Shown: positions 2,107 through 33,547, numbered from the stretch's first letter. The stretch: DNA of 39,173 nt from Nitrospiria bacterium (GCA_036397255.1 DASWJH010000007.1:1-39173); one strand, 5' to 3'. Notes: a model not told the origin generated them from the sequence alone. A program made the numbers and translations.

Positions 2107-2236
2107 CCAAAAAATATCAACACTTTCATCTGAAAGGTCATTTGAGGCGGAGGGAAAACCCATTAACTACCTGAAAAGGTTCTAATAAACCAAATAGTCC
2201 GGGGGGGGGTATTTTTTTTTATCCAGGGATGGCATC

Positions 2237-2803: not shown

Positions 2804-2857
2804 TCTTTATTTAAAAAGTAAATCCCGCAAAATTCCTTACCTCTCCCCCGAGTAACT

Positions 2858-3109: not shown

Positions 3110-3142
3110 ATTTTTCTTATTGTTTATTTAGAAACCCTTTTA

Positions 3143-5053: not shown

Positions 5054-5117
5054 AGAAAACCCTGAGAAATTCGTTCCCTCCCCTAAATTCTTTCAACCCT
5101 TTTTATCCGTTATGCCT

Positions 5118-5791: not shown

Positions 5792-5809
5792 CTATATTTT
5801 CCCTTTTCA

Positions 5810-6600: not shown

Positions 6601-6690
6601 AACATTTTCCGCTTTTTAAAAATGAAGTTCAATTTTTTTTGGGAAATAGGAACGGGAAAATAAAATCTTACTTTAATGAAAGGTAAAAAT

Positions 6691-15130: not shown

Positions 15131-16048
15131 TCAAGATGGGGCACTTTGTCTGACCAACAGTTCCATTGGTTTTGTGGCCTCTCCAATGTAAATCGACCGG
15201 TGGGGAAATGGAATTTCAATGCCCTGGGCATCAAATGCTTTTTTGAGTCTCCGGCGGTACTCCCGTCCGACTGCCCACTGCTGGATCGGTTGAGTTTTAA
15301 TCCGTGCCTTGATCGTCACTTCGGATTCACCAAATTTATCCACCCCAAATACCTCCAGCGGACCCAGAATGTTCGGGCCAAAATTGGGATCTTGTCTCAA
15401 ATCTTCATCCACCTCCCGCATGACTTCCACCACCCGGTCCGTATCCTCTTTATAGGCCACCCCCACATCGATCACGTAGGCCGACCACCCCTTGGTCATA
15501 TTGGAGAGGGTGGATACGCTCCCGTTGGGAAACACATGCACCACACCGGCCAAATCCCTTAACACGATGGTTCGAAACGTAATCGTCTCCACCAATCCCC
15601 CCGTGCCATTAATCACCGCAACATCTCCGACTCTGACCTGGTCTTCCAAAATCATAAAAAAGCCGCTGATCACATCTCTTACCAAGTTTTGAGCGCCGAA
15701 TCCCAATGCCAGGCCCGCAATTCCGGCTCCCGCGATAACCGGTGCGACGTTGACCCCCACCTGGTCCAGCGAAATGATGATCACCACCGTCCAAACGGCG
15801 AACCGTCCGATGGTCGACAGAATCCCCACCAAGGTGTCGACCCTTTTCCTCGTACTACCCGGGACCGATTCCGTCGGTTCTTTCGCTTTGATCAGGAGGA
15901 CTTCTAGACGGTGGAGAGAAAACCGGATCACGCGAAGGATAATCAGCCCCCCCGCAATCACCAAAAAAATCCTCAGCCCGTTCTGGGCGAATGAAAAACT
16001 GGTATCTAATAGAAGCGTTTTGAACCTTTCCAACGATCCCTCAAACAT
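15131..16048 (-). CDS. mscS: Small-conductance mechanosensitive channel (MscS family)
   Basis: 305 residues, close to the length of the minimal MscS channel, which opens under membrane tension to release osmolytes. Two N-terminal membrane helices (about 20-42, 75-95) lead into the pore helix VAPVIAGAGIAGLALGFGAQ (about 102-121), followed by NLVRDVISGFFMILEDQVRVGD, the MscS beta domain and the cytoplasmic vestibule (DVGVAYKEDTDRVVEVM). The start ATG has a strong AGGAGG upstream. It stands alone, convergent with the TerB-like gene, and is divergent from the copper cluster with 539 bp between. Confidence 0.95.
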   Translation of the reverse strand: MFEGSLERFKTLLLDTSFSFAQNGLRIFLVIAGGLIILRVIRFSLHRLEVLLIKAKEPTESVPGSTRKRVDTLVGILSTIGRFAVWTVVIIISLDQVGVNVAPVIAGAGIAGLALGFGAQNLVRDVISGFFMILEDQVRVGDVAVINGTGGLVETITFRTIVLRDLAGVVHVFPNGSVSTLSNMTKGWSAYVIDVGVAYKEDTDRVVEVMREVDEDLRQDPNFGPNILGPLEVFGVDKFGESEVTIKARIKTQPIQQWAVGREYRRRLKKAFDAQGIEIPFPHRSIYIGEATKPMELLVRQSAPS

Positions 16049-16587
16049 ACGGCCCCTCCTTCTGATAAAAATTGACTTTTCTTTCGACGTCGATTTGTGA
16101 TTCAGAATTAGAGATAGATTCTAAAATGGAGAGCGAAAATCCTATCACCCCCCGCGCCACCAGGCAAGTTCAAATAAAAGCGACAACAAGGGCCTTTCCC
16201 TTACCATTAAAGGGGAAAAATTTTCCTTCCTCAAGGTCATGGCCCTCCAACTGGAGGATCAAATAAATCCCATGGGTCATGAGACTCGTGCAATTGACCT
16301 GGGTAACTCCAACTTTCTAGTCCAGGCCTGGGCGTAATGGGAGCCGACAAAATCAAAAAACTTGACAAGAGGAATTTCCTTGTGCTAGGAAGTTAATTTT
16401 AATTTTTAAGAGAAAGAGAACGGAAAATACTCCTGACGAAACAATTCAGTATACCGAGGAAAAGCAATACATTTCAATACATTAAGATTTTAAATGCAAA
16501 ATCTGTATCAAAACAACTCGCACAAGCAGTTCAAATCCTTAAAACGAATCAACACCTTTGAACAAATCTAAGGAAGGGGAGAGTCAG
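16049..16587. other. Long intergenic region ahead of the copper cluster
   Basis: 539 bp without a full gene. A plus-strand frame at 16239-16337 (ATG to TAA, open upstream to about 16120) reads like protein (VMALQLEDQINPMGHETRAI, then NSNFLVQAWA) and may be a decayed gene end. A TTGACA at 16362-16367 has no good -10 box at 17 bases. An imperfect inverted repeat, CAAG-AGGAATTTC-CTTG, lies at about 16366-16382. The 9-bp word CAATACATT occurs twice, ten bases apart (16465-16473 and 16475-16483). The promoter of the first oxidase gene must lie here but cannot be pinned down by eye. Confidence 0.45.
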
Positions 16588-19500
16588 ATGATGAAGACCG
16601 TGGTAATAAGAAGCTTTTCATTCATTTCAGTGTTGGCCTTTATGCTGGTCTTAGCGACACAGGGCGCAGCGATCAGCGGTGAAGGGGCCGGCCATGAGCA
16701 TTCCAATACTTCTTCTGCGACCGCTTCGCAGGATACCTCAGCCTGGGAAAAGCAGTTAAAGGCCCAGCTTGAGCGGGAAGAAGCCGCCGAAGGACGGACA
16801 GGTCAGCGAGAACGGGTGAATGCGGCAATGCAGAAATTGATGGACGAGATCGCGAAGGGTTCAGGCGGTCACGCTGCACATACCGGTCAGGGCGCCTTTA
16901 GCGACATGAGCATGATGCAGCAGATGGATCGAAGTTTCTTTCTTGGGCCGACGGGGGTTGCTGAAAGCGTGAGCGCCAGAGGTCAGTGCCCGAAGAACGC
17001 CCCTGTGCGCGAATTTGACATTTCGGCAATCAATGTTGAGACCACGATCAATCAATGGCTCGACTTTTATCCGGGATATATGTATGTCCTGACCGAAAAC
17101 GTTGAAAAGGTCCGTCAAGAGGAAAAGCGGAACAGAGATGCCCGTGAAAAATCAGGTTATGATCCTGGGGCGGTATCCACCGGACTTCAGACCGACATGA
17201 TCCAGCCGCTCAATGTCCGTGCCAACCAAAGTGATTGTGTCAGAATCACCCTGAGAAACAAATTGGACTACGAGGAAGTCAGCCTGCATATCCATGGCTC
17301 CAGCATGATTGTAAAGTCCACGGGAGAAGCGGCGACCATTGCCAATCCGGATTCCATTGTCAAGGAAGATGAGACTCAGGTTTTCGAATGGTATGTCCGG
17401 CCAGGTGAACAGGAAGGGGCCCACGTATTCCACAGCCATGTGGGACGAGAGCAATCCAGTCTTGGGATGATTGGAACCTTTATTGTTGAGCCCATGGGAT
17501 CTCGCTACCTGGATCCGCTTACTGGCAAGGAGACCAAGAGCGGCTGGCAGGTGATGATCGAGAATCCCAATCTTGCGGACTTCAGAGAGTTTGTCATTAT
17601 CTACCACGAGATCGGCGATGAATCCTTCCGGCCTCTGAACCGCCATGGTGAGATGATTCCTCAACGGGATCCGAACACCGATGCCTATCGCCCCTCAGCC
17701 CGCGCCATTAATTATCGAAGCGAACCCTTCGGGGTGAATAACCTGGCTCTTCAGGAAAAATATTTCCACCATGAAGACGAATCATTATCTTACAGTTCCT
17801 ATACCTTTGGGGATGTCCCGACGACAATCCCCCGCTCCTATATGGGAGATCCTGCGAAGTTCCGTCTTGTTCACGGCGGCGGGGAGGTGTTCCATTCTCA
17901 CCATCCCCACGGGGGAACGATTCGATGGCTCCGGCAGCCAAAGGCGGATGGCAAAGAAAGTTTTCTCCTGACCGCTGCAGGCAACGGTCCGGTAAAATAT
18001 CCGGAGGTCCGAACCACATCGGACCGGGTGGATGTCCAGGTGATTGGTCCTTCCGAGGTTCTGGACCTCCAGACAGAATGCGGATCTGGACTCTGTCAAC
18101 AATTAGCGGGTGATTTCCTGTTCCACTGCCATGTGGCGCATCATTATGTGGCCGGAATGTGGGGTTACTGGCGTGTCTATAACACCCTTCAAAATGGGAA
18201 TTATCCGTTAGGAAGCACCGACATCATGCCGCCTTTGCAAGAGCTTCCTGACCGTAAGGGTCGGATGAAGCCTGCCGTAACCTCTGACAAGCTCGTGGGC
18301 AAGACCATGGATTGGTACGACAAGAAGTGGAACATCACTGCCGGCAAGTCGGACTGGTCCAAGCCCATTCCGGATGTCTCCATTAATGACTGGGTCAAGA
18401 TGATGGTCCCTCCGGCTGGACAGCCTGGCCACACCTCGGATGAAAAGGGCCAGATTCTGGCTTATGACGCTACGGTGTGGGACTGGACCTGGGAAGGGAA
18501 AAAGGCGCTCGGTGAGCCGGAGGTGACCGGAACATTTGACTGGCCGAAATACAAGTCCCCCATGCCGGGAAAGCGCCCGCCGATCCTCTTTGAGGCCAAA
18601 ACCGGGAAATTGTCTTGGCCCCATTTCAAACCCCATTTTGGAAAACGTGTCCCATTTGCCCGGCATCATGGACCGGCACCCTGGCTTGAACCGATCCATA
18701 TGGATAAAAATAACGGGGCGTTGCCGAGCGATCCGGGGGGGAAAGGGGCTCTTGGCGAAGAGACGAACCAGCCTGCCCGACCGGGAGAGCAAGGGAGGTG
18801 GAGCCTCTGCCCTGAAAATGCAGGACGGAAGCAATATACCATTCATTTTATCCAAACTCCGATTCAGATTACGAAGGGACTTGGAAAGGAAAAGCCGGTC
18901 GTGGATCCCAATGGGTTACTTTATGTCCTCCATGAAGAGGAGGCGAAGGTCCGTGCCAACCCGGCGGGGGACCAGACGATCCCACTGGTTTACCGCGCCA
19001 GTGTTTATGACTGCGTCGATGTGATCTTAAAGAGCGAGTGGGAAGACAACGACACCACCAACTTCCAGATGTCGAAGATCAACATCCATCCGCATTTCAT
19101 ACAGTTCGACAACCAAGCGTCAGATGGCGTGATCACCGGCTTTTCGTACGAGCAGTCGGTCCGTCCCTTCATCCAGATGACAAAGGAGAAACACAAGGGG
19201 CTTCCAACCCCGATGAATGCGGTTCTTACTGAGGATGTCAAGGCGGGGGCTGTCTCTATTAAAATCAAGATGGCAGAGGGCGCGACCTCGTTCCATGTCG
19301 GGACAGACCTCATGATCGGTGCGGACGAGGTACAGACCTCCGAAATCCGTTGGATCAAAGATATCAAAGGGGACGTCATCACTTTCAGCGAGCCTTTAAA
19401 GTATGACCACAAGAAAGACGAGATTTCGACGGTGGAGTTTGTCCGTTATCGGATGTGGGTGGATGCCGATGTCGGGACCGTCTTCTGGCATGACCATGCC

Positions 19501-21492
19501 TTCGGGGCCACAACATGGCCTCATGGGGGGGTCGGAGCAATGATCGTGGAGCCGGTGGGGGCCACATACCATGATCCAAAGACCGGGGAACCGATTCGGA
19601 GCGGCCCCGTCGCGGACATCCGGTCGACCGAGCCGATCGGCTATGGGGTAAACGGAAGTTTCCGTGAACTGGTCGTGATGCCCCACGACACGGTGCCGTA
19701 TACAGCCCAGGTGGTTACGGAAGGCAATCCCCCGGGACAGCCCATCCAGACCGCGATCGATGCGGGTCAGACCCTCTCGTTCCAGATGCCATATGATCTG
19801 GACAAGGTTGCCGTTCCGATGCTCAACGGGGGAACCCATACCACGGGCGGTGGTTTAAATTTCCGTGCCGAGTCTGTGGCCCGGCGTCTGAAGATCAATC
19901 CAGACGCGTCACTCATTTTCTCCAGCAAGGCTCATCAAGATCCCAGCACCCCACTGCTGCGGGCCTATCTGGGTGACACGGTCGTCTTCCGGCTCCTGCA
20001 TACGTTAATGAATGAAAGTCATACCTGGCATGTGGCGGGCCATGCCTTCCGGACAGAACGTTATGCCGAGAAATCCGACCTGAGGAACGCTCACCACGTG
20101 GGAATTGCAGAACGTTATGATTTGGTCACAAAAGCCGGTGGCGTCCAGCAGATGGCAGGGGATTATCTCCATTACAACGGTCGCGCATCCCACTTGTCTG
20201 AAGGCAGTTGGGGAATTATCCGGGTTTTGGACAAGGAAGTTTCAGATCTGAAGAAGCTTCCGGGGCGTGACGAAATCCCAGCCTCGGCTAAATCTGTTTG
20301 CCCTGCGGATGCCCCGGTGAAGACTTTCAATGTCATTGCGGTAGACCTTGAATTGAATTTTAATAACAACGCCCCGGATGTCATCGAAGTGGACTTTGAC
20401 CGCAAACTGTTGGTTTCCAATCCTCAGGGTAAGATCTTTATGCTAGAAGGAGAAAAATCAAGGGTGGCCACGGATGGTTATCAACCCCTTCCCCTTACAC
20501 TCCATGTCAATGTCGGAGATTGCATTAAGATCAATCTCAAGAATGAGATGAAGGCCAGCCGTGCCTCTTTTAGCGCGGACATGCTGGCATTTGATCCTAA
20601 GGAATCCCATGGGGTCAATGTCGGTTTGAATCCTGGAGATCAAACGGTTCCTCCCGGAAAGGGCCGCACCTATACCTTCTATGCCCATCCAACGTTGGGT
20701 GAAACAGCAGCCCTGGTTTGGGACTGGGGGAACTTCATCAACAACGTCAGAGATGGTCTGTTCGGAGGCATTGTTGTCGGCCCGAAAGGATCAAAATATC
20801 GTGATCCATTGACGGGTGAGGATATTTCACTGAAAAGCTCTTGGATAGCGGATGTGATCGTTGATACTTCTATTCCGGAAAATATCGGTCGTTCCGATTA
20901 CAGAGACGCTTCGCTCTTCTTCCAGGATGAGGATAATATCCTTGGCACATCCTTTATGCCTTACCTCCAGCAGATTGCAGGGTTGGTGGGAGTCAATTAT
21001 CGGAGTGAACCTTGGCTATATCGGGAAGACAATGGATGTGAGCCAGCCACGATGTTTACTCCCTGTGTGGTTGGAGAGGCTGGTCTGGCCACACCAACCA
21101 TCCTGGCACATGCAGGGGATCCGGTGCGGATACGTGTGTTTGGTGCTTTCAACGAGCAGAACCAAATCTTCAGCATCGAGGGTCATGAATGGCCCTTTAA
21201 GCCCGACATGCCCGGTGCGGATATGTTGAGTAGCCTTCAGTTTGGAGGATCGGAATACCTGGATGTCTATTTGAAGGAAGGGGCCGGTGGACCATTTGCC
21301 ATCCCGGGTACCTATATCTGGCAGAACCATCGTATGCCTTATGCCCAGGCCGGGCAATGGGGATATCTACAGGTTCTCCCACTGGGAGACCGGCGGATTC
21401 TTCCACTCAACAGCAGCGGGCTGGGAGGGAAGGTCGCTGAGGGGCCACAGGAAGAAAATGCCGTGGTTCCTGTCTCTTTAAACCAGAAATAG
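16588..21492 (+). CDS. Giant six-domain multicopper oxidase 1 (MofA/MnxG-like)
   Basis: 1,634 residues from the ATG at 16588, preceded by GGGGAG; a TTG ten codons upstream is less likely. Signal peptide at about 1-28 (SVLAFMLVLATQGAAIS), so it acts outside the cytoplasm. Three homologous units each open with a Cys-Pro motif (CPKNAPV at 134, CPENAG at 741, CPADAPV at 1238). Unit 1 has the complete copper set: HIHG (234, 236), HSH (282, 284), HSHHPH (436, 439, 441) and HCHVAHHYVAGM (513-524, with Cys514 and axial Met524). Unit 2 keeps HPH (834), HDH (968) and HTWHVAGH (1145-1151) but has lost the HCH motif. Unit 3 has lost the HxH (SAD at 1329-1331). Size and layout match MofA (about 1,660 residues) and, in domain number, MnxG; both are tied to Mn(II) oxidation. 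The substrate here is not proven. Codons are more GC-rich than in MCO2. Confidence 0.93.
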   Translation: MMKTVVIRSFSFISVLAFMLVLATQGAAISGEGAGHEHSNTSSATASQDTSAWEKQLKAQLEREEAAEGRTGQRERVNAAMQKLMDEIAKGSGGHAAHTGQGAFSDMSMMQQMDRSFFLGPTGVAESVSARGQCPKNAPVREFDISAINVETTINQWLDFYPGYMYVLTENVEKVRQEEKRNRDAREKSGYDPGAVSTGLQTDMIQPLNVRANQSDCVRITLRNKLDYEEVSLHIHGSSMIVKSTGEAATIANPDSIVKEDETQVFEWYVRPGEQEGAHVFHSHVGREQSSLGMIGTFIVEPMGSRYLDPLTGKETKSGWQVMIENPNLADFREFVIIYHEIGDESFRPLNRHGEMIPQRDPNTDAYRPSARAINYRSEPFGVNNLALQEKYFHHEDESLSYSSYTFGDVPTTIPRSYMGDPAKFRLVHGGGEVFHSHHPHGGTIRWLRQPKADGKESFLLTAAGNGPVKYPEVRTTSDRVDVQVIGPSEVLDLQTECGSGLCQQLAGDFLFHCHVAHHYVAGMWGYWRVYNTLQNGNYPLGSTDIMPPLQELPDRKGRMKPAVTSDKLVGKTMDWYDKKWNITAGKSDWSKPIPDVSINDWVKMMVPPAGQPGHTSDEKGQILAYDATVWDWTWEGKKALGEPEVTGTFDWPKYKSPMPGKRPPILFEAKTGKLSWPHFKPHFGKRVPFARHHGPAPWLEPIHMDKNNGALPSDPGGKGALGEETNQPARPGEQGRWSLCPENAGRKQYTIHFIQTPIQITKGLGKEKPVVDPNGLLYVLHEEEAKVRANPAGDQTIPLVYRASVYDCVDVILKSEWEDNDTTNFQMSKINIHPHFIQFDNQASDGVITGFSYEQSVRPFIQMTKEKHKGLPTPMNAVLTEDVKAGAVSIKIKMAEGATSFHVGTDLMIGADEVQTSEIRWIKDIKGDVITFSEPLKYDHKKDEISTVEFVRYRMWVDADVGTVFWHDHAFGATTWPHGGVGAMIVEPVGATYHDPKTGEPIRSGPVADIRSTEPIGYGVNGSFRELVVMPHDTVPYTAQVVTEGNPPGQPIQTAIDAGQTLSFQMPYDLDKVAVPMLNGGTHTTGGGLNFRAESVARRLKINPDASLIFSSKAHQDPSTPLLRAYLGDTVVFRLLHTLMNESHTWHVAGHAFRTERYAEKSDLRNAHHVGIAERYDLVTKAGGVQQMAGDYLHYNGRASHLSEGSWGIIRVLDKEVSDLKKLPGRDEIPASAKSVCPADAPVKTFNVIAVDLELNFNNNAPDVIEVDFDRKLLVSNPQGKIFMLEGEKSRVATDGYQPLPLTLHVNVGDCIKINLKNEMKASRASFSADMLAFDPKESHGVNVGLNPGDQTVPPGKGRTYTFYAHPTLGETAALVWDWGNFINNVRDGLFGGIVVGPKGSKYRDPLTGEDISLKSSWIADVIVDTSIPENIGRSDYRDASLFFQDEDNILGTSFMPYLQQIAGLVGVNYRSEPWLYREDNGCEPATMFTPCVVGEAGLATPTILAHAGDPVRIRVFGAFNEQNQIFSIEGHEWPFKPDMPGADMLSSLQFGGSEYLDVYLKEGAGGPFAIPGTYIWQNHRMPYAQAGQWGYLQVLPLGDRRILPLNSSGLGGKVAEGPQEENAVVPVSLNQK

Positions 21493-21512
21493 TTTTTTTT
21501 GTGAAAGAGCTT

Positions 21513-21568
21513 GAGAAATCAGGCAGGGTTGTAAAAAGAGTATATCCCTGACCTGATTTCTCTTTTTT
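21513..21568 (+). terminator. Rho-independent terminator after multicopper oxidase 1
   Basis: Arms GAGAAATCAGG-CAGGG (21513-21528) and CCCTG-A-CCTGATTTCTC (21546-21562) pair over 16 bases with one bulge, around a 17-base loop, followed by six T (21563-21568). It would reduce read-through from the oxidase into the small cupredoxin genes. Confidence 0.85.
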
Positions 21569-21589
21569 AGATTGAGGGTCTGGTGGATA

Positions 21590-22543
21590 ATGATGGATAA
21601 TGTGAAGAAATGGAGGTGCCTCGGTGTCGTCTTGTTTCTTTTAGGTATGACAGGACTTTCAACACAGGCCCTGGGCTATGAAGCAGTTCAGGTGTCCGAC
21701 GGTGGAACGATCACGGGGAAAGTCACCCTCAACGGACCGATCCCCCCTCCCAGGGTCTTTCCCCTTGTTCTCTATCCATTCGGGCCGTTTTGTAAGAAAA
21801 TTTCGGATGGAAAGGGTCATATCCTCCTGGAAGAATTTATTGTAGGCCATGAAGGTGGGCTGCAGGACGCCATTGTTGCAGTGCAACGGGTCAAAAAGGG
21901 CAAACCTTTTCCCCCTATTGAATCAGAACTGTTTTCTGTGGACTGCATGTTTCACCCAGCGGATGTTTCTGATGATGAGCAGTTTCGTGTCGATGATAAA
22001 GGGAAGCTGCGGCATGCCCACCCCCTGGTCAGCGTTATCCAAAATCCTCAACACATTTCGGTGATCAATAAAGATCCGATTCTGCATAATGGGCAGGTTT
22101 TTCAGAGTGAAAAGGGCAATATCATCTTGAATTTCCCTCTGCCTATTTCGGATGACCCGAGAGGGGGAGTTGTACATCTTGAACCGGGAAAGCGTATTAC
22201 CCAGATGATCTGCGGGATGCATGAATTTATGCAGACATGGGGATTTGTGGTGGACAACCCCTATTACGCAAAGACAGGGAGAGATGGAACATTCGTCATC
22301 GATCAGTTGCCTCCCGGGACCTATAAGGTCATCGCCTGGCATCCCCATCTAAAAATGATTGAACGAGAAATTATAATTCCGGCCAGGGAGACCGTTTCCA
22401 TCAACCTCGAATTTTACTCTCATCAGGTGAAGCGGCCCCACTACGAGACTCAGGAAAAATTCAGAGTCGGACCTGAGGCGCTACCTCATGAGCATCTTGA
22501 GGACTGCGAGGCACCCTATTGTACACAGGCCACGGAAGACTGA
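21590..22543 (+). CDS. Exported cupredoxin-like protein A with CarboxypepD-type domain
   Basis: 317 residues from the tandem ATGs at 21590/21593 (a TTG at 21572 is possible). Signal peptide about 1-30, with the mature part starting YEAVQV. The first part, GGTITGKVTLNGPIPPPR then FCKKISDGKG and VKKGKPFPP, belongs to the plastocyanin-like/carboxypeptidase-regulatory family frequent in metal-respiring and nitrifying bacteria. Type-1 copper ligands are present: His166 in LHNGQVFQ, then Cys208, His211 and Met214 in CGMHEFM. A beta-sandwich regulatory domain follows (TGRDGTFVIDQLPPGTYKV). Two more conserved Cys (FC near 70 and DC near 112) could form a disulfide. Probably a periplasmic electron carrier or copper donor for the oxidases. 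Overlaps protein B. Confidence 0.85.
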   Translation: MMDNVKKWRCLGVVLFLLGMTGLSTQALGYEAVQVSDGGTITGKVTLNGPIPPPRVFPLVLYPFGPFCKKISDGKGHILLEEFIVGHEGGLQDAIVAVQRVKKGKPFPPIESELFSVDCMFHPADVSDDEQFRVDDKGKLRHAHPLVSVIQNPQHISVINKDPILHNGQVFQSEKGNIILNFPLPISDDPRGGVVHLEPGKRITQMICGMHEFMQTWGFVVDNPYYAKTGRDGTFVIDQLPPGTYKVIAWHPHLKMIEREIIIPARETVSINLEFYSHQVKRPHYETQEKFRVGPEALPHEHLEDCEAPYCTQATED

Positions 22544-23403
22544 AGGTTTTAGCCAGCGCTATGGTTTCCCTGACCCTATGGGTTCTCATGGGTTCAGGTC
22601 CCGGGCTGGCTTTAGGATATGAAGAGATGACCGTCACCTTCGGAGGAACCCTAACAGGAAGGGCCGTCCTTGAGGGGACCCCGCCGCCCGCCCGAATCTT
22701 TCACCTCATTTTTTCTCCAAACATTGATTTCTGTGGAAAAATCTCTGATGGAAAAGGGAACCGACTGCTCAACGAATTCAGGGTGGCTTCGGACAGCGGA
22801 TTCCAGGGTGTCGTGGTAGCGGTGGTGGGGGTTGAAAAAGGCAAGAAGTTTAATTTTACTCCAGAGATCCAGATCGATCACTGCCGAATTTCCCCATTTG
22901 TGACCCCTGTGCGTAATTATCGCCCCATTCTAATCTCCAATAAGGACCCCATCACGCATGATATTCAGGGGTATTCTTTAAAAGATCGTTATACCTTTGC
23001 CATGTTTAACAAACCGATGATACCGGAGAGCACGGCATCCAAGGAGATTCGTTTTCGAAAAGGAAATTATATCTTTCGTACACAGTGTGGTGTTCATGAC
23101 TTTATGCAATCCTGGGGAATTGCCGTCGGAAACCCCTACTTCGCCGTCACGGGAAGCGATGGGACCTTTGTCATCCAGGACATCCCGCCCGGCCAGCATG
23201 ATGTGATCGCGTGGCATCCTCATATGAAGGTCCAGGCACAACAGGTAAACGTGCTGAATAATGGAAGGGTCACACTGAATTTCAAGTTCGATGCTTCGGA
23301 AGTTGGCATTCCTTTGCATGATCTGCAAACCTCATACAGACTTCAAACGGCGCTCGAGCCCTTTCACTTAGCTCCTCCTACCGTTGAACACCAGATACCC
23401 TGA
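22519..23403 (+). CDS. Exported cupredoxin-like protein B with CarboxypepD-type domain
   Basis: 294 residues from a TTG at 22519, which overlaps gene A by 25 bases, has GAGG eight bases upstream and gives a signal peptide with a positively charged start (RLKVLASAMVSLTLWVLM). An ATG at 22561 is the other candidate. Same architecture as A but clearly diverged: GGTLTGRAVLEGTPPPARIF, then FCGKISDGKGNRLLNEF. Copper ligands His147 (ITHDIQG), Cys190, His193 and Met196 (CGVHDFM) are all kept. The C-terminal regulatory fold reads TGSDGTFVIQDIPPGQHDV. The segment between is shorter and lacks the CMFHPA stretch of A and C, so B probably has a different partner. Translation is coupled to A. Confidence 0.83.
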   Translation: MYTGHGRLKVLASAMVSLTLWVLMGSGPGLALGYEEMTVTFGGTLTGRAVLEGTPPPARIFHLIFSPNIDFCGKISDGKGNRLLNEFRVASDSGFQGVVVAVVGVEKGKKFNFTPEIQIDHCRISPFVTPVRNYRPILISNKDPITHDIQGYSLKDRYTFAMFNKPMIPESTASKEIRFRKGNYIFRTQCGVHDFMQSWGIAVGNPYFAVTGSDGTFVIQDIPPGQHDVIAWHPHMKVQAQQVNVLNNGRVTLNFKFDASEVGIPLHDLQTSYRLQTALEPFHLAPPTVEHQIP

Positions 23404-23776
23404 TCCGTTATTTAAGAGCGGTTTCGCCCCCTGTTTCGGGAATCTTCTAGATGTAGGGATCCACAAAAAGATTGTTCCCCGAGAAGAAGAGGTTCCATTT
23501 CAAGGCACTTCATTTCGATCTCATAACGATGACACAGACAGGCCGGTAAAACCTTTGAACACTATATTGATGCAGAAGTGATTCTGCGTGAAAAACTGTA
23601 GGCATGGCGAGCACTGGTTGACAAGCAGGGCAGCGAATGAATAGAATGACTTTGAGCTAGTCCTTGCGGTTGGCGAGGCATGCTGAAGGGGCTTTCGCCA
23701 ATACCGCCTACGATTGCAGCGCCGAAGAGAATCAGAGCGGGCCGGATAACGGCTATATCTCAATATCTGGTCGATA
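23404..23776. other. Gene-less stretch of apparent debris between the two copper modules
   Basis: 373 bp with no complete gene on either strand. Both strands show short, coding-like but interrupted frames (for example minus-strand LVNQCSPCLQFFTQNHF at about 23590-23640), the mark of decayed sequence, possibly an insertion-element end. No terminal inverted repeats or terminator hairpins were found. The composition differs from the small genes on each side. It splits the cluster into a 5' half (oxidase 1, A, B) and a 3' half (C, oxidase 2, SmbP-like). Confidence 0.5.
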
Positions 23777-24661
23777 ATGATTAAAGCGTTTAAGAAATTT
23801 TCACTTTTTGGTATTGTCCCTTTCCTGCTTCAAGTCGTTTTCCTTCCTGCGGCTCTTCCCTACGAAGATATCAAAGTGATGAATGGGGGAACCATTGAAG
23901 GCAAGGTGTTCCTAAAAGGCTCCCTTCCGGCACCCCGCGCATTTCTGCTCTCTCTCTCGCCCTTCGTTGATTTCTGTCAAAAAGTTTCCGATGGTAAAGG
24001 CCGCGTCTTACTCGAAGAATTTAATATCGATCGTGAGGGAGGAATGTCCGACGTCATCGTTGCGGTTCAGGAGGTCAAAAAAGGGAAGCCGTTTCCTCCG
24101 ATCCGGGCTAAAATATTCGCAACGGATTGCATGTTTCATCCTGCTGAGGTTCCCGTTAAAGAACTTTACGAGACCGACCACATGGGAAAAAGCCATCATA
24201 TTCATCCCATGGTCACGGTGGTTCAAAACCATCAGCCGATTACCGTCCTCAATAAAGACCCCATCTTCCATAACGGACAGGTTTTCCAGAGGGAACGGGG
24301 AAACATTATGCTTAACTTTCCGCTTCCCACCTCGGGAGAACCTCAGGGGGGGATTTTAAAATTTGATCGAGGCTTGAGGGTTTCGGTCATGATCTGTGGA
24401 ATGCATGAATTCATGCAGACCTGGGGTTTTGCGGTGGAAAACCCCTATTATTCAAAAACCAATCGTCAAGGGCAATACACCATTGATCAATTGCCTCCTG
24501 GAACTTATAAAGTTCACGCCTGGTATCCCCATTTCAAGGTTTCTGAAAGGGAGGTTGAGGTAAAGGCCGATGGAACCGTCCAATTAAATTTTGAATTTGA
24601 TTCGAAAAAAGTAAAAAGAAGAGCTTTTGAAACCGAAAAAGGGATTCGGTCCTTTAATTAA
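23777..24661 (+). CDS. Exported cupredoxin-like protein C with CarboxypepD-type domain
   Basis: 294 residues, ATG start without a visible Shine-Dalgarno sequence. Signal peptide about 1-27 (FGIVPFLLQVVFLPAALP), mature start YEDIKV. It is much closer to A than to B: the CMFHPAEV segment, LNKDPIFHNGQVFQ and MICGMHEFMQTWGF agree nearly residue for residue with A. Copper ligands are His165, Cys207, His210 and Met213. The regulatory domain is QGQYTIDQLPPGTYKVHAWYPH. It lies 76 bp before oxidase 2 with no terminator between, so the two are probably cotranscribed, which supports a functional pair of a small blue-copper-like protein and a giant oxidase. Confidence 0.86.
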   Translation: MIKAFKKFSLFGIVPFLLQVVFLPAALPYEDIKVMNGGTIEGKVFLKGSLPAPRAFLLSLSPFVDFCQKVSDGKGRVLLEEFNIDREGGMSDVIVAVQEVKKGKPFPPIRAKIFATDCMFHPAEVPVKELYETDHMGKSHHIHPMVTVVQNHQPITVLNKDPIFHNGQVFQRERGNIMLNFPLPTSGEPQGGILKFDRGLRVSVMICGMHEFMQTWGFAVENPYYSKTNRQGQYTIDQLPPGTYKVHAWYPHFKVSEREVEVKADGTVQLNFEFDSKKVKRRAFETEKGIRSFN

Positions 24662-24737
24662 ATGGTATTTAATTTGTTTCTTTTGAAACAGTTGACATGA
24701 AAGGCATTAATTTAAAAACGAAAGAGAGGAAAATGTC

Positions 24738-27700
24738 ATGAGGAAATTCGCAGGAAATTTTCTGGCAGGGATTTTTTTCGCCCTCTTTGCCCTAAACGTA
24801 CAAGGTTTAACCGTTGCCGCTGAAGAAGGGACAACTTCCTCAGAACCTGCAAATGAACAGGAAGCAACCACGCAGGATTGGAAGGGTAAATTGAAGGCCC
24901 AAATTCATATTGAAGACTCCATAGAGGGACGGCCTGCACGAATGTCCCGAATGGATATTATGAATAAAATGGCGGCACAACAGTTTGCCCACGAAAACCA
25001 TGAAGAAAAAAAAGGCACCTTTACGGCCATGGAAGGTCCGGGTCACCAATTGGATATGTTTGACGGGATGATGAAACAGGGCGTACTGCTCGGGCCCGCT
25101 TCCGTTGCTGAGGAAAGCGTCACTTCCAGTGGACGCTGTCCCAAGAGTGCTCCTGTGAAAAAACTCGACATCACCGCCATCAATGTAGAGGTTACTCTTA
25201 ATCAGTGGTTGGATTACTACCCCGGTTATATGTTTGTGCTGACTGAAAACATAGAAAAGGTTCGTGAAGAGGAGAGAGTGAATGCAGAGGCAAGAGACAA
25301 GGAAAATGATCCTGGCGCTGTTTCCAATGGGCTTCAAGGGGATATGATTCAGCCTTTGGTGATTCGCGCAAACCAGGGGGATTGCGTCAACATTACCCTC
25401 CGCAACGAGACCGAATTTGAAGAGCCCGTTGGAATTCATATTCATGGATCGAGCACGCTGATTAAAAAAACCGGGAAGCCGGCCATCGCTTCAAACCCCG
25501 ATACGGTGGTTGAATTCGGAGAGAGCAGAGAATATGAGTGGTACATTGCTCCTGATTTCCAAGAAGGAGCGCTGACCTTTCATAGTCATGGGGATCGGTT
25601 ACAAACGGGTTTAGGGATGGTGGGGACTTTTGTGGTTGAACCCGCAGGATCCACCTACGTTGATCCCTTCACCGGGGGAGAATTAAAAAGCGGATGGGAG
25701 GCAATGATTGCCCATCCGGTCAACAGCGATTTTAGAGAATATGTGATTATCTACCATGAAGTGGGGGATGAATCGTTCCGCCCATTAAGTAAAAATGGAG
25801 AAATGATTCCTCAAAGGGACCCCATTACAGACGCTTATCGTCCAGGGGCCAGGGCCCTAAATTTCAGGAGCGAACCTTTCGGCACTAACAACCTGGCCAC
25901 TCAAAAAGAAAGGTTCGGGTTTGAAGATGAGGCTGAAGCCTATAGCGCCTACACCTTTGGAGATGCGGGAACGCCCATCCCACGTGGATATATCGGGGAC
26001 CCTTCAAAATTCCGATTGGTTCACGGTGGATCGGACATTTTCCATTCCCACCACCCTCATGGGGGAACCATTCGTTGGCAGCGAGACCCCAAGGCCGAGA
26101 AAACCCTTTTCGATGCAGGCCGAAACGGACCGGTAAAGTTCCCTAGAATGCGTTCAAAAAGCGAACGGGTGGACGTTCAGGTTATCGGACCTCAAACAGT
26201 CTTTGATTTAGAACCCGAATGCGGAGCTGGATTGTGCCAACACCTGGCCGCGGACTTCCTGTTCCATTGTCACGTGGCTCACCACTATGTGGCTGGAATG
26301 TGGAGTTATTGGCGAGTGTATAACACACTCCAAATCCCCGGTTTCCAACAGGATATTATGAAGCCCCTGATGGAGCTTCCCGATCGGAAAGGAAAAATGA
26401 AACCGGCGGTGGATTCCACCCAATTGATTGGAAAAACGGTGGATTGGTTTGGAAAGAAATTCAAAATTACCCCGAAAAAAACCGATTGGTCTCAAAACCC
26501 TCCGATGGTTTCTATTAACGATTGGGTAAGCGCCATGCTTCCCGTTCAAGGCCAGCCAGGCCATACGGATGACTGGAGAGGACAAATCATGTCTCACGAT
26601 GCGACGGTCCTTGACTGGGCTTGGGAGAAATCGCCCAAAGGTCTCTTGGCCATGGCAGAAAGGGAAACCGTCCAGGAATGGCCTAAATATTTCCCTCCTG
26701 AAGACCATATGGGAGTTAAGGTTGGCCCCGGGGGTCGGCGAAAAGTGGCTTTTGATCCAAAAACAGGAAAGTTGGCCTGGCCAGCGCTTCAGCCCCACTT
26801 TGGAAAAAGACCACCCTTTGCGAGAAACCATGGGCCTGCTCCTTGGCTTGAACCTTTTCAAATTGAAGAAGGGGGATTTTTACAAAAGGACAATGTGTTT
26901 AATCCCTATTCCGATCCGGGCGGCCCCGGTGCCGGAGGTGGTGTGAGTGGAATCGAAACCACCCGTTTTCCGAGACCCGGCGAGCAAGGTCCTTGGAGCC
27001 TTTGCCCCAGGCAAAGTGACAACATGGCACAGCGAAAACTTTATCGCATTCATGCTCTTGGACAGCTTCCAATCATCTTATCGAAGGGTGACGGAAAAAA
27101 CCCACCGGTCAAAGATGATGATGGGCTCATATACGTGCTGAGGGAAGAACAGGCAGAAATTATGGCCAATCCCGACTTACGCGTTCCCCTGGTCTATCGG
27201 GGAAATGTGTATGACTGCCTCGATGTCATTCTAACCAACGGGTGGCGAGATAGCGTTGAGAACGGCTATGCCAGCAAACTTAACATTCATTCTCATATGT
27301 GGCAATTTGATAATCAGGCCTCCGACGGGGTCATCAGCGGGTTCTCATATGAGCAGGTGATGCGCCCTTATAAAGATGAGCTGATAGATGATAGCCATGG
27401 GTTACCCGCAGCAATGAATGAAAAGCTCTCCAAAAAGGCTAAAGCCGGTAAAGATTACGTGGTCCTGACCAATGAGAAAAAGGCCGCCCGATACCACGTA
27501 GGGACTTTGCTTGGAATCGGCATGGACCAGGTAGAAACATTTGAGATTCGAAGGATCAAGAAAATATCGGGCAAGGAAATTACCTTTACCGCTCCCTTGT
27601 CTTACAACCACGATAAAGGGGAAATTGTCAGCGTGGAGTTCGTTCGGTATCGCTACTATCCCGATGCGGATTTTGGGACCACCTATTGGCATGACCATGC

Positions 27701-29666
27701 CTTCGGGGCGATTTCCTGGCAACATGGGGCCTTCGGAAGTACCATTATCGAACCCCCGGGATCGACATACCATGATCCAAAAACAGGGGATCTAAAAAGA
27801 AGCGGTTACGTGGTGGATATTCATACCAACGAACCCCACTCCATTGATGCCACGGGGAGCTTCCGAGAATTAGTCCTTCACATTCAGGACACATTGTTCT
27901 CCACCGCAAACAGCGTTTCAACGGGTTCTCCCCCTGAAATGCTCCAACAAGCCGCTGCCGCTGCAACAACCCTCCTTTATCCAATGGACAAACAGGATAA
28001 TGTCTTGCTGACGCCAAACCCCTATATCAACGGAGGAACCCATACCACGGGAAGCGCTCTGAACATGAGGTTGGCTCCAATTAACCGGCGTTTGGTTCTC
28101 AACTCGGATCCGTCCCTTGCCTTTAGCAGCAAAATCCATGGAGATCCGGATACGCCATTGTTAACGGCTTATTTAGGGGATCCCATTATGATCCGGAATC
28201 TGGTTACCGCGGTAAACGAAACCCATACGATTCATGTCACGGGGCATTGGTTTAGGTTCCAGCGGTATAATCCCGAATCACAGCCGAGAAGCACCATCCA
28301 TATCGGAATTGCGGAACGTCATGATTTATCCATTCCGGAGGCAGGAGGAGCCCAAAAGATGGCTGGAGACTACCTTTACTATAACGGTCGGGCCTCAAAA
28401 CTTACCGAAGGGAGCTGGGGGTTAATCCGGGTCTTAGATGAACCTTCAGAGAATTTGCAACCGTTGCCGGGGAAAGAAAGTATTCCCCAATCGGCAAAGG
28501 AGGTATGCCCTTCCGCTGCGCCTGTGAAAAACTTCAATGTTCTCGCAGTGGAAAAGGGCCTTGTATTAAACCCGCGGGCGGATGAAACCATTGAGGTAGA
28601 TTTTAATCGGGAAATGTTAATGAGCAATCCCGAAGGAAAGGTATTCGTCCTTGCCGATGAGAAAACAAAGGTCGCTTCAGCCGGTTTCCAGCCCATGCCT
28701 TTGACGCTGCATGTTAATATAGGAGACTGTATCAAGGTTAATTTAAAAAATGAACTCAGCGAAGGGCGGACCTCCTTCCATGCCCATAACTTGGCATACG
28801 ATCCCATGGACTCTCAGGGGATCAATGTGGGGAATAATGAGGGAGATCAAACCATCGGTCCGGGTGAAAGCAAGGTGTACACCTTTTATGCCCACCCTGA
28901 AATTGGGGAAAATGCAGCCCTCATTCAAGACTGGGCCGATGCAAGCATGGCCAACCAACGCGATGGCCTTTTTGGGGCCATTATCATTGGTCCCAGAGGA
29001 TCAACCTACCGGGATCCTGTGACTGGCGAAGATATTTCCCTTAAAAACAGTTGGCGGGCCGATGTCATTGTGGATAGGGGAGTTCCGGAGAATATGAATC
29101 GCGCCAATTATCGGGATTTTTCCCTCTTTTTCCAGGATGAGGACAATATTCTGGGAACCAGCTTTATGCCTTACCTACAAAAGGCTGCGGGAATTTCCGC
29201 TGTCAATTATAAAGCCGAACCTTATGAATTACGTTTTGAAGAAGGATGTGAGCAAAATCGCCTCTTCATTTGTGTTTCGGAGGATGAGGATGGAGATCCG
29301 GCCACACCCATTTTGGAAGCCCACGCAGGAGATCCAGTGGTCATCCATGCCTTTGGGGCCTTTTCAGAACAAAATGGGATTTTTGGCTTAGAAGGGCATC
29401 AATGGCCGGAGGAGCCATTTTTGGCAGGGGCTGACCAAGTTCAAAATTTTGAATTTGGGGGAAGCGAGGTTCTGAATGCTTACACTCAAGCGGGAGGGTC
29501 TTTCTCCATTCCCGGAGATTATCTCTATATGAACCATCGGATGGCCTACATGGAGGCCGGTCAATGGGGCTTCCTTAGGGTCCGGAATCCAGGAGATAAA
29601 AAGATTCTTTCGTTAACCGATACCCGGCCAAGGCTTCGTGCTGTAGGAGTCGGGCTTCAAGACTAA
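24738..29666 (+). CDS. Giant six-domain multicopper oxidase 2 (MofA/MnxG-like)
   Basis: 1,642 residues, ATG at 24738 with GAGAGGA upstream; signal peptide about 1-29 (FLAGIFFALFALNVQGLTVAA). It is co-linear with oxidase 1 over the full length. Unit starts: CPKSAPV (134), CPRQSDN (756), CPSAAPV (1257). Unit 1 copper motifs: HIHG (234, 236), HSH (282, 284), HSHHPH (436, 439, 441), HCHVAHHYVAGM (510-521; Cys511, His516 and Met521 fit the canonical HCH-x3-H-x4-M). Unit 2: HSH (851), HDH (985), HTIHVTGH (1163-1169), no HCH. Unit 3 still has HAH (1348, 1350), unlike oxidase 1. The first unit alone could carry a full type 1 plus trinuclear cluster. Mn(II) oxidation is a hypothesis. A strong terminator follows 22 bp after the stop. 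Confidence 0.93.
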   Translation: MRKFAGNFLAGIFFALFALNVQGLTVAAEEGTTSSEPANEQEATTQDWKGKLKAQIHIEDSIEGRPARMSRMDIMNKMAAQQFAHENHEEKKGTFTAMEGPGHQLDMFDGMMKQGVLLGPASVAEESVTSSGRCPKSAPVKKLDITAINVEVTLNQWLDYYPGYMFVLTENIEKVREEERVNAEARDKENDPGAVSNGLQGDMIQPLVIRANQGDCVNITLRNETEFEEPVGIHIHGSSTLIKKTGKPAIASNPDTVVEFGESREYEWYIAPDFQEGALTFHSHGDRLQTGLGMVGTFVVEPAGSTYVDPFTGGELKSGWEAMIAHPVNSDFREYVIIYHEVGDESFRPLSKNGEMIPQRDPITDAYRPGARALNFRSEPFGTNNLATQKERFGFEDEAEAYSAYTFGDAGTPIPRGYIGDPSKFRLVHGGSDIFHSHHPHGGTIRWQRDPKAEKTLFDAGRNGPVKFPRMRSKSERVDVQVIGPQTVFDLEPECGAGLCQHLAADFLFHCHVAHHYVAGMWSYWRVYNTLQIPGFQQDIMKPLMELPDRKGKMKPAVDSTQLIGKTVDWFGKKFKITPKKTDWSQNPPMVSINDWVSAMLPVQGQPGHTDDWRGQIMSHDATVLDWAWEKSPKGLLAMAERETVQEWPKYFPPEDHMGVKVGPGGRRKVAFDPKTGKLAWPALQPHFGKRPPFARNHGPAPWLEPFQIEEGGFLQKDNVFNPYSDPGGPGAGGGVSGIETTRFPRPGEQGPWSLCPRQSDNMAQRKLYRIHALGQLPIILSKGDGKNPPVKDDDGLIYVLREEQAEIMANPDLRVPLVYRGNVYDCLDVILTNGWRDSVENGYASKLNIHSHMWQFDNQASDGVISGFSYEQVMRPYKDELIDDSHGLPAAMNEKLSKKAKAGKDYVVLTNEKKAARYHVGTLLGIGMDQVETFEIRRIKKISGKEITFTAPLSYNHDKGEIVSVEFVRYRYYPDADFGTTYWHDHAFGAISWQHGAFGSTIIEPPGSTYHDPKTGDLKRSGYVVDIHTNEPHSIDATGSFRELVLHIQDTLFSTANSVSTGSPPEMLQQAAAAATTLLYPMDKQDNVLLTPNPYINGGTHTTGSALNMRLAPINRRLVLNSDPSLAFSSKIHGDPDTPLLTAYLGDPIMIRNLVTAVNETHTIHVTGHWFRFQRYNPESQPRSTIHIGIAERHDLSIPEAGGAQKMAGDYLYYNGRASKLTEGSWGLIRVLDEPSENLQPLPGKESIPQSAKEVCPSAAPVKNFNVLAVEKGLVLNPRADETIEVDFNREMLMSNPEGKVFVLADEKTKVASAGFQPMPLTLHVNIGDCIKVNLKNELSEGRTSFHAHNLAYDPMDSQGINVGNNEGDQTIGPGESKVYTFYAHPEIGENAALIQDWADASMANQRDGLFGAIIIGPRGSTYRDPVTGEDISLKNSWRADVIVDRGVPENMNRANYRDFSLFFQDEDNILGTSFMPYLQKAAGISAVNYKAEPYELRFEEGCEQNRLFICVSEDEDGDPATPILEAHAGDPVVIHAFGAFSEQNGIFGLEGHQWPEEPFLAGADQVQNFEFGGSEVLNAYTQAGGSFSIPGDYLYMNHRMAYMEAGQWGFLRVRNPGDKKILSLTDTRPRLRAVGVGLQD

Positions 29667-29688
29667 ATGAATTCTTTCCATTCCTTCA

Positions 29689-29725
29689 GGGTGAGTACAA
29701 TTTTATTTGTACTCACCCTTTTTTT
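29689..29725 (+). terminator. Perfect-stem intrinsic terminator after multicopper oxidase 2
   Basis: GGGTGAGTACAA (29689-29700), loop TTTTAT, and the exact complement TTGTACTCACCC (29707-29718) form a 12-bp perfect stem, followed by seven T (29719-29725). The same bases also read, in the frame from 29667, as the hydrophobic core of a signal peptide for the next gene. Confidence 0.9.
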
Positions 29726-29794
29726 CTAATTCCCGCCCCAACCTTTTCAGAGTCCCTGGAAAAATTCAAAGAAAAAGAAAATCTTGCCAATGCC

Positions 29795-30178
29795 ATGTCG
29801 ATTGCAAGAAAAGGATTTGTTACCCATATCAACACCGCTGCCAAAACCGGGGACCTTTCAAGAATCCATTACCATGCAAAAGAATCCCTAAGGGCTGGAA
29901 AAGATCTTTTAGCCAATGCCCAGGCGATGCTTGATATGATCAAGGAAACGGTTAAACCCTTAGACCCTCAAAGCAAGGAAAGGAAAGATGGGGAAAAAGC
30001 CATTTTTCATTTAAACGAAGCCATAAAACACGGGAGATCGGCCTTGATGCATGCCCATCATGCCACCCATTCAAAAACCATTCGAAGCGGACTATCCCAT
30101 GCGAGAGAAAGCGCAAAGCATGCTAGGATTTCAGGCCTTTATGCGCTAGAAGGGGAAACCCTGGCCCTTATCATGTAA
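29795..30178 (+). CDS. SmbP-like His-rich metal-binding protein
   Basis: The frame from the ATG at 29795 gives 127 residues with the helical His repeats of SmbP-like proteins: THINTAAKTGD, IHYHAKESLRAGKDLL, HLNEAIKHGRSALMHAHHATH and GLSHARESAKHA. SmbP of Nitrosomonas is a periplasmic four-helix protein that binds Cu and other divalent metals. The frame stays open upstream to LIPAPTFSESLEKF, which looks like the end of a signal peptide. Its start, MNSFHSFRVSTILFVLTLFF, is found at 29667 but in another frame. One extra T in the seven-T run at 29719-29725 would join them into an exported protein of about 170 residues. A true frameshift, a sequence error, or a separate start at 29795 are all possible. 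Probably a metal buffer for the oxidases. Confidence 0.72.
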   Translation: MSIARKGFVTHINTAAKTGDLSRIHYHAKESLRAGKDLLANAQAMLDMIKETVKPLDPQSKERKDGEKAIFHLNEAIKHGRSALMHAHHATHSKTIRSGLSHARESAKHARISGLYALEGETLALIM

Positions 30179-30183
30179 GAGGA

Positions 30184-30366
30184 TTATTTTTTCAAACCGC
30201 TTTTACAACACCGGAACCACTTCTTTTCCAATGGCCGGTACTCGGACCAAGGATGGCTCACACTGCTGCACCGAAAAAAACCCCTCTCCAGGGGATTAAA
30301 AACCTCCGTGGATGTTTCATAAACCCACCGATCCACCCAGGGGTTCTGCAAAAACCGGATCACCAC
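30184..30366 (-). CDS. Possible small Cys-containing protein with two similar repeats
   Basis: A 60-residue frame with a GTG start. It holds two similar segments, NPLERGFFRCSS and RPLEKKWFRCCK, about 20 residues apart, each ending in Phe-Arg-Cys. There is no Shine-Dalgarno sequence of note and no known family. It overlaps nothing and ends six bases from the SmbP-like gene on the opposite strand. The repeat makes a real product or a remnant more likely than chance. The following 130 bp (30367-30498) show nothing. Confidence 0.35.
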   Translation of the reverse strand: MVIRFLQNPWVDRWVYETSTEVFNPLERGFFRCSSVSHPWSEYRPLEKKWFRCCKSGLKK

Positions 30367-32158: not shown

Positions 32159-32425
32159 ATGAGAAAGATAAAACTTCTATTTTTCACAATTGGGGGAATT
32201 TTTTTGGTGAGTGAGCTAGCCATGGCAGCGGATACCGCCACGATTAACATTCAAGCGACGGTTCAAGGAACCTGTACCATTCAATCTTCTCCAGCGCTTA
32301 TGGATTTCGGGAACATCGATCCTTCAACCTTTACAGATACCGCGTTGCCGGGTTCGGTTGTTTTCCGTTGCACACAAAACGAAGCGTACAGCATTGACTT
32401 TGCAGGTCAGGTAGCCCCTGTTTGA
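32159..32425 (+). pseudogene. Spore coat U / pilin-like secreted protein, truncated by an IS110 remnant
   Basis: AAAAGGAGG stands five bases before the ATG. The product begins with a signal peptide (about 1-23, FFTIGGIFLVSELAMAA) and the start of an SCPU domain: TINIQATVQGTCTIQSSP, then MDFGNID and VVFRCTQNEAYSIDF with two Cys for the expected disulfide. Normal members have 150-180 residues, usually in chaperone-usher-type pilus operons. At about codon 83 (near 32406) it runs into insertion-element sequence and stops after GQVAPV. The missing C-terminal part was not found beyond the elements. The riboswitch in front indicates that c-di-GMP once controlled surface attachment through it. Confidence 0.8.
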
Positions 32426-33264
32426 TCACTAATCCCCTTGATCGATGTGATGATCCCCAGGTCATCAATGACCGTTGATTCACAAAACTGAACGAGCATC
32501 TCAGTGATTTTATTCTGTCTTTCAATCAGATACCAAAGTGTTGAGATCTTCTCCGGCAGAATTACTTCTTTTGCCGCATTCACAGATGCCACCGATCCTC
32601 GGGCCGCTGAGAGAATATCCTTTGGGGAAACAGAGACTCTTTTTCGCTGATCGGAAGGAACCAGTGCTTTTGCAATTGCCTTGGATGGGGCGGCTTGAAT
32701 AAGACGGGCTGAAGGGAATTTTAAAAGAAAATTAAGCATGGTTTGCGAAAAAAGGTTACAAAGGGATTCCAGTTCCGGAAAAGTGCTCTGAAGGATTCTC
32801 TTGATATCGTTCTTTATACCGGAGATCAAAACCGCTAAAGACTCTCTTTCTCTAGCCAGATCTTTAAGGTCCTGGGTATCTTGTGGAGAGGATATTTTGG
32901 ACAAAGAATCTTTGTGGGCCACAAGAAATTTGGCGATCGTCATGGCATCTTTTTTGTCGGTCTTGGTCTTCCTCAAAGAAAGTTTGGTGAAATTGGAAAT
33001 GAGAAGGAGATTAATCACAATTGTTTTTATTGCTTTGGATACAAGAAAAGGATACAGATTCATGTGGTAACATCCTGTAGACTCCATGGCAATCATGACC
33101 TTTGAGAGATCTTTACAGTGAGAGGTAATAGAGCTTAGAAGATCAGAAAAGCCTTTGGCATCCATATCAAAGCAGAGATAGAAAATCTTCTCACCCTTGC
33201 TATCAATCCCTTGGGCGGAGGAGCAATCCTTAGAGACATCAATGCCCACATAAAGGGTATGCAC
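32407..33264 (-). pseudogene. IS110-family transposase, C-terminally truncated
   Basis: The true start is a GTG at 33264 with GGAGGTG directly upstream; a longer frame to 33387 has no such signal. The 285 residues begin with YVGIDVSKD, holding the first acidic residue of the RuvC-like DEDD domain. IAMESTGCYHMNLYPFL, KTKTDKKDAMTIAKFL and a coiled-coil region follow. It ends at IKGISDQTGAT, precisely where the Transposase_20 domain with its catalytic Ser should continue for another hundred or so residues. It is therefore inactive. Confidence 0.85.
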
Positions 33265-33306
33265 TGTTTCACCTCCTTCAAATTGGTTTACAGATAAGGC
33301 AGGAAA

Positions 33307-33379
33307 TGTCTCCCGACCAAACCTCCATCGTGACAAGGGTTCTATAGACCCAATCAACCTACCATGGTTTTGGGAGACA
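33307..33379 (-). ncRNA. Candidate IS110 bridge RNA core
   Basis: Upstream of the transposase start, TGTCTCCC (33307-33314) and GGGAGACA (33372-33379) are perfect complements that enclose an inner hairpin GGGT-7-ACCC (33337-33351). IS110 elements are known to encode a structured bridge RNA in the noncoding end before the transposase. The location and nested structure fit, but loop-to-target pairing was not tested. Confidence 0.4.
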
Positions 33380-33514
33380 GGGAACACACTACAAAAAGGA
33401 TTCTATGACCCAGGTGAAAAGCAAGTTCTCCTGCCCTTGCAACTTTGATTCTCGAACCTTATATCATAAATTGATATATAGCTGCGCATAATTAAATGGA
33501 TATGTTATTTTAAA

Positions 33515-33547
33515 CATGCTATCCTGTAATAGGAGGTGGATAGCATG
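33515..33547 (+). promoter_or_regulatory. Hairpin that holds the ribosome site of the IS630 transposase
   Basis: CATGCTATCC (33515-33524) and GGATAGCATG (33538-33547) form a perfect 10-bp stem. The Shine-Dalgarno AGGAGG lies in the loop and the ATG in the stem. Such a structure would lower translation from transcripts that read through from outside. Confidence 0.65.

Follow-up and report, generated by a model that had tools for sequence, protein, structure and literature searches.

The locus described here bears on the question of which enzyme oxidizes Mn(II) in Nitrospirota; two very large multicopper oxidases are encoded together with three small proteins of blue-copper type. The stretch of DNA analyzed (39,173 nucleotides, called the window) is contig C7 of a Nitrospirota metagenome-assembled genome (3.35 Mb, 122 contigs, 97% complete), which is the sole member of its order in the genome collection searched. 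In this 97% complete genome neither an amoA/AMO match nor a NarH/NxrB-type match was obtained, and the source organism is therefore not recognizably a nitrifier. As stated in the original prediction, the genes lie on one strand (+) and form two modules, MCO1-cupA-cupB (16588-23403) and cupC-MCO2 (23777-29666). The gene spacing suggests two transcription units, the second starting after a 373-bp gap. In this gap, 5′ of cupC, a sigma-70-like promoter (23618-23647, +; TTGACA-18-TAGAAT, 11/12) was detected, which may mark the start of the second unit; the total number of such matches across the region is at chance level. A strong intrinsic terminator (29688-29726, +; 13-bp stem followed by a T tract, −22.1 kcal/mol, z −9.0) closes the MCO2 unit. 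GC3 is 0.52-0.61 for mscS, MCO1, cupA, and cupB (15131-23403) compared with about 0.43 in most flanking genes, for which transfer or a different codon selection is a possible reason.

MCO1 (16588-21492, +) encodes an exported six-domain multicopper oxidase of 1634 amino acids and MCO2 (24738-29666, +) a six-domain oxidase of 1642 amino acids; the two are 57-58% identical. For MCO1 the listed ORF begins with TTG 16558, 5′ of the favored ATG 16588, which has a good ribosome-binding site. Both were predicted to be exported proteins of about 1,640 residues with full multicopper oxidase motifs, and this was borne out: both carry signal-peptide-like N-termini, and in both the Pfam Cu-oxidase domains exceed the cut-off. 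Both contain HxxHxH and HCHxxxHxxxxM in domain 2 and two HxH motifs in domain 3. With TTG 16558 as residue 1, the type-1 copper ligands of MCO1 are H446, C524, H529, and M534 (domain 2), and the trinuclear ligands are H449, H451, H523, and H525 (domain 2) together with H844, H846, H978, and H980 (domain 3). In the alignment all 12 ligands are invariant in 61/61 full-length homologs, giving one type-1 and one trinuclear site, and MCO2 keeps all 12. The pair of HxH motifs in domain 1 was rejected as trinuclear site, as it is conserved in 85-87% of the 61 sequences and not invariant. Judged by these ligands, the O2-reducing machinery is complete, and because the trinuclear site is intact in all homologs the enzyme should reduce O2 itself.

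Full-length homology was found between MCO1 and MnxG of Bacillus (PDB 9bxa; MnxEFG), with E = 1.6e-95 and repeated alignment along MnxG. From this alignment and the Cu-oxidase matches, six cupredoxin-type domains are seen along the oxidase, as in MnxG. The type-1 site of domain 2 aligns, as do the domain-3 pairs 844/846 and 978/980, which match HIH and HDH of MnxG. However, the window oxidases exceed the MnxG chain (1,227 aa) by more than 400 residues, and the curated MnxG model NCBIfam NF041487 gives 124.3 and 117.9 bits for the two oxidases against a cut-off of 3100 bits. By sequence, MCO1 is a relative of MnxG and not MnxG itself. Also, no ORFs of the size of MnxE or MnxF lie between or beside the window oxidases, which have cupredoxin-fusion partners instead. 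By published descriptions, MofA of Leptothrix and OmpB of Geobacter share with the window oxidases a similar length, export, and the bacterial six-domain layout. Six-domain oxidases of these two genera have 1,569-1,652 amino acids, and in bacterial six-domain oxidases the type-1 copper is located in domain 2 and the trinuclear site in domains 2/3 (PMC3600357), which is the arrangement found here. MofA/OmpB loci contain a PPIase (MofB), a cytochrome c (MofC), or an SCO1-type chaperone (PMC5566968), whereas in the window cupredoxin-fusion genes take the place of an adjacent MofB and MofC. The assignment to the MofA/MnxG class thus holds, and so does the claim that the layout is unlike that of mnx or mofABC.

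In the genome collection, every MCO1 relative came from Nitrospirota; among them were Candidatus Manganitrophus GAC4 (79-80% identity) and metagenome-assembled genomes of Manganitrophaceae and Troglogloeales. In the tree, MCO2 is placed in a separate deep clade shared with three other families (G231, G239, and G183). A recent tandem duplication was rejected on this ground; according to the tree, MCO1 and MCO2 are ancient paralogs. The source genome contains a further oxidase cluster on contig C28 (L080, 5936-14312) with the order MCO-cupA-cupB, a 112-aa remnant of the 3′ end of another MCO, and a cupredoxin gene, which looks like the two-module layout with the second oxidase decayed. More distant MCO1 relatives (24-33% identity) were found on plasmids. 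One of them, on a plasmid of Streptomyces sp. NBC_00335 (L100, 5308-12442), has about 1,770 amino acids and 33% identity, is annotated as hypothetical, and adjoins a gene annotated as copper resistance protein CopC.

The small proteins are encoded by cupA (21590-22543, +), its paralog cupB with an identical copper motif (start at TTG 22519, overlapping cupA, or at ATG 22561; end at 23403; +), and cupC (23777-24661, +), the upstream partner of MCO2. In agreement with the prediction they are exported paralogs, each with H...C-x2-H-x2-M followed by a C-terminal carboxypeptidase-regulatory-like domain, although the Pfam PF13620 cut-off is passed by cupC only. In cupA the ligands are H172, C214, H217, and M220 (numbered from TTG 21572), in line with the cupredoxin pattern His...Cys-x2-His-x(2-4)-Met. 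These residues and a Cys pair are near-invariant in 93 homologs; C-x2-H-x2-M is present in 91 of them, and the two exceptions are truncated or misframed. Amicyanin and pseudoazurin have the same C-x2-H-x2-M spacing. None of the Pfam cupredoxin models fires on the small proteins. A confident AlphaFold model (pLDDT 90.5) has a cupredoxin beta-sandwich fold, and Foldseek matched it to the Nitrosopumilus cupredoxin 5fc9, amicyanin, plastocyanin, and pseudoazurin with probabilities of 0.98-1.00 and modest E-values (6e-4 to 1e-2). Motif and predicted fold together suggest a type-1 copper and are consistent with true cupredoxin-type partners of the oxidases. Fold and spacing are common to amicyanin, pseudoazurin, and plastocyanin, but the window proteins add an N-terminal beta part with the conserved Cys pair and the C-terminal carboxypeptidase-regulatory-like domain. 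Elsewhere in the source genome (L081, C15:2000-21000; cluster at 2174-8412), an extracellular-electron-transfer-type cluster is followed by a fourth gene of this cupredoxin type. The cluster encodes a decaheme lipoprotein cytochrome (773 aa), a porin-like protein of 431 aa, 7-heme, 4-heme, and 1-heme cytochromes, and a NapC/NrfH-like protein. A general tie between this cupredoxin and porin/multiheme cytochrome genes was rejected, as orthologous solo cupredoxins in other genomes are without such neighbors.

To see how far the unit extends, 396 Nitrospirota genomes were searched. The oxidase was found in 162/164 genomes of the class Nitrospiria and in 0/232 others of the phylum; a smaller second draw with MCO2 as query gave 57/58. 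The class includes nitrite oxidizers, comammox Nitrospira, and Manganitrophaceae, and AMO was found in 40 genomes of one of its families, which marks these 40 as comammox Nitrospira. A search for the same gene order in other genomes, as proposed with the prediction, recovered a conserved neighborhood that recurs in many families. For 67 oxidase genes the 3′ flank was long enough to be assessed; a co-oriented cupredoxin gene lies directly downstream of 50 of them, in 48 cases within 400 bp; as the loci are phylogenetically clustered, this is a count and not a probability. The MCO2-type order, with the cupredoxin gene upstream, was present in 4/4 genomes (the source genome, G231, G239, and G183). 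That each oxidase type keeps an arrangement of its own speaks in favor of a functional pair. A third oxidase clade, comprising Manganitrophaceae and Nitrospira copies (e.g. L006 3336-8168 and L089 3190-7929), mostly has no cupredoxin gene directly downstream. As far as sequence comparison can tell, the homology of the oxidase to 9bxa and the recurrence of the gene order are far beyond chance, and the retention in nearly all genomes of the class points to a shared, putative redox job rather than to a local oddity.

The oxidases themselves have been noticed before. In Nitrospina and Nitrospira (N. gracilis and N. defluvii), Luecker et al. (2013) noted a conserved MnxG-like oxidase encoded in the NXR region, together with two cupredoxin-like proteins of the NXR cluster (PMC3578206). 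According to Yu et al. (2022), all Manganitrophaceae carry "two novel MCOs" (PMC9040806). Given 79-80% identity with the copies of GAC4 and a near-universal occurrence of the family among Nitrospira, the window oxidases very probably belong to the same family as both. A 2025 study suggested Nitrospira as a contributor to Mn removal in sand filters (PMC12070406), and the main text of a 2025 comparative genomics study of Nitrospirales is without mention of multicopper oxidases or cupredoxins (PMC12342949). No description of the oxidase-cupredoxin gene pair was found in the literature outside subscription journals, which includes PMC3578206 and PMC9040806 but not the original Manganitrophus paper. 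In the same literature no expression data for the oxidase or cupredoxin genes were found. The suggestion of an undescribed locus thus fails for the oxidases, a known family, while their class-wide pairing with cupredoxin-fusion proteins appears to be new. An NXR-linked role of the window cluster was rejected, since the source genome has no NarH/NxrB-type match and, in the Nitrospira genomes used for comparison, such matches are separated from the oxidases by tens of kb or more.

From these data we consider it about an even chance (probability roughly 0.5) that the window carries two copies of an exported, O2-dependent metal-oxidizing unit, in which a six-domain oxidase of the MnxG/MofA class is accompanied by one amicyanin-like cupredoxin or two. 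Electrons from a metal ion would enter at the type-1 copper, either in the periplasm or on the cell surface, and pass on to the trinuclear site, where O2 would be reduced to water. Mn(II) is the leading candidate substrate because of the homology to MnxG and the occurrence in Mn oxidizers; Cu(I) or Fe(II) would be possible. For the cupredoxins, the most plausible role would be that of a reversible partner to the oxidase for electrons or copper. Several points weaken the metal-oxidizing explanation: the class holds nitrifiers not known to live on Mn (with NarH/NxrB-type proteins, and AMO in the 40 genomes mentioned), the scores are far below the MnxG cut-off, and MnxE/F partners are absent. The metal chemistry could also differ, as OmpB, a MofA homolog, is required for Fe(III) oxide reduction (PMC5566968). 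A role specific to Mn-oxidizing bacteria does not fit an oxidase that is near-universal in the class, comammox genomes included; the function would rather be a general class trait, not tied to Mn lithotrophy. The oxidase should accordingly not be read as a marker of a Mn-oxidizing lifestyle in a class that contains the main nitrite oxidizers and comammox organisms. A gene of copper-carrier type is a fixed neighbor of the oxidases, and the published objection to oxidase-based Mn lithotrophy is the need for a periplasmic carrier. We put forward, as a tentative and rather improbable extension, that oxidase and cupredoxin-fusion proteins form a dedicated electron- or copper-exchanging complex throughout the class. 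This complex would be an undescribed core redox module of Nitrospiria (Mn oxidizers, nitrite oxidizers, and comammox) and, in Manganitrophaceae, the missing carrier link for oxidase-based Mn(II) lithotrophy.

The most probable alternative, which we nevertheless regard as unlikely, is copper homeostasis, with the oxidase as a giant cuprous oxidase and the cupredoxins storing or delivering periplasmic copper. Both protein types are copper-binding by motif, the near-universal presence is as expected of a housekeeping function, and next to some of the Nitrospira copies a Memo-family protein and an SmbP-like protein are found repeatedly. However, no CopB, CopC, CopD, or Cus gene was recognized among the neighbors examined of the Nitrospiria copies, an enzyme of CueO/CopA size would suffice, and at least three paralogs per genome are unusual for such a role. 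Less probable still is energy-conserving Mn(II) oxidation, in which electrons from Mn(II) pass via the oxidase to the cupredoxins and then to the respiratory chain. This was the idea of the original prediction and corresponds to a condition named by Yu et al. (2022), who stated that oxidase-based Mn lithotrophy would need a periplasmic electron carrier and favored Cyc2 and PCC_1 (PMC9040806). Dedicated cupredoxin genes adjoining the oxidases, and two oxidases in each member of the Manganitrophaceae, would suit it. The idea that electrons are carried away from the oxidase is weakened by the complete trinuclear site in 61/61 homologs, at which they would be lost directly to O2; the unit is also equally present in nitrifiers, and PCC_1, Cyc2, and TO_2 are better-placed candidates for lithotrophy (PMC9040806). 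With the trinuclear site intact, an exit to the respiratory chain is a less likely role for the cupredoxins than electron donation, reversible exchange, or the carrying of copper. At a similarly low, marginally lower level we place oxidative-stress defense, proposed by Luecker et al. (2013) with regard to Nitrospina and Nitrospira, in which the oxidase makes superoxide-scavenging Mn(III); N. defluvii and N. gracilis, in which the MnxG-like oxidase is conserved, are both without superoxide dismutase (PMC3578206), and the near-universal presence fits, but the proposal is speculative in the source paper and leaves the cupredoxin partners unexplained. It is very improbable that the cupredoxin-like proteins are structural envelope proteins with an incidental copper site and a neighborhood due to inheritance only, as the second domain and the top Foldseek match, an S-layer assembly (SlaA/SlaB), might suggest, because His, Cys, His, and Met are near-invariant in the 93 proteins while the rest has diverged to 30-40% identity, and because linkage with the oxidase is kept across families far apart.

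The prediction had further included a His-rich SmbP-like protein (29795-30178, +). Its strand and His content (8.6%) were as described, but the ORF, helical in character, lies 3′ of the strong terminator at 29688-29726, no in-frame extension provides a signal peptide as expected for an exported SmbP, and no SmbP match was obtained in Pfam (profile PF16785), NCBIfam, or PDB. Relatives occur in only 5/167 class genomes, the source included, and a class-wide SmbP-like partner was rejected on this basis. In one distant family (L098) an exported relative is located directly behind the oxidase, and the likeness to it begins, by eye, before the ATG of the ORF. By this comparison the ORF is probably related to exported proteins but shortened at its N-terminus; its membership in the oxidase locus is doubtful, and the L098 link is suggestive only. 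A 60-aa ORF at 30184-30366 (−) looks like a remnant: on visual comparison it is similar to the C-terminus of a protein family that adjoins the exported SmbP-like gene in L098. A protein adjoining a Nitrospira oxidase gave a sub-threshold PF16785 match (E 5e-4).

In the outer, looser neighborhood, a small exported protein (9975-10529, +; function without assignment) belongs to a family met repeatedly next to oxidase clusters in related genomes. Homologs were found in L085, L086, L088, L089, L091, and L099, with N96, G100, A105, R109, and other residues invariant; its confident model (pLDDT 87.7) gave no convincing PDB match. A sigma-54-type response regulator (6691-8175, −) and a PAS histidine kinase (8075-9709, −) have related proteins adjoining the oxidases in relatives, from which we infer a possible link to oxidase control. 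A tie of the NtrC-type regulator to the oxidases by sigma-54 promoters was rejected, since matches were below chance expectation and none was suitably placed. In Nitrospira the wider oxidase neighborhood also contains sensor/regulator pairs and, twice, an SmbP-like protein. The Nitrospira-family clusters (L089-L093) are repeatedly flanked by genes for FGE-sulfatase-domain, HEAT-repeat, and Memo-family (AmmeMemoRadiSam B) proteins. On the other side of the window locus, apparent insertion-sequence remnants (32407-34602) with unclassified transposase-like ORFs are present on both strands.
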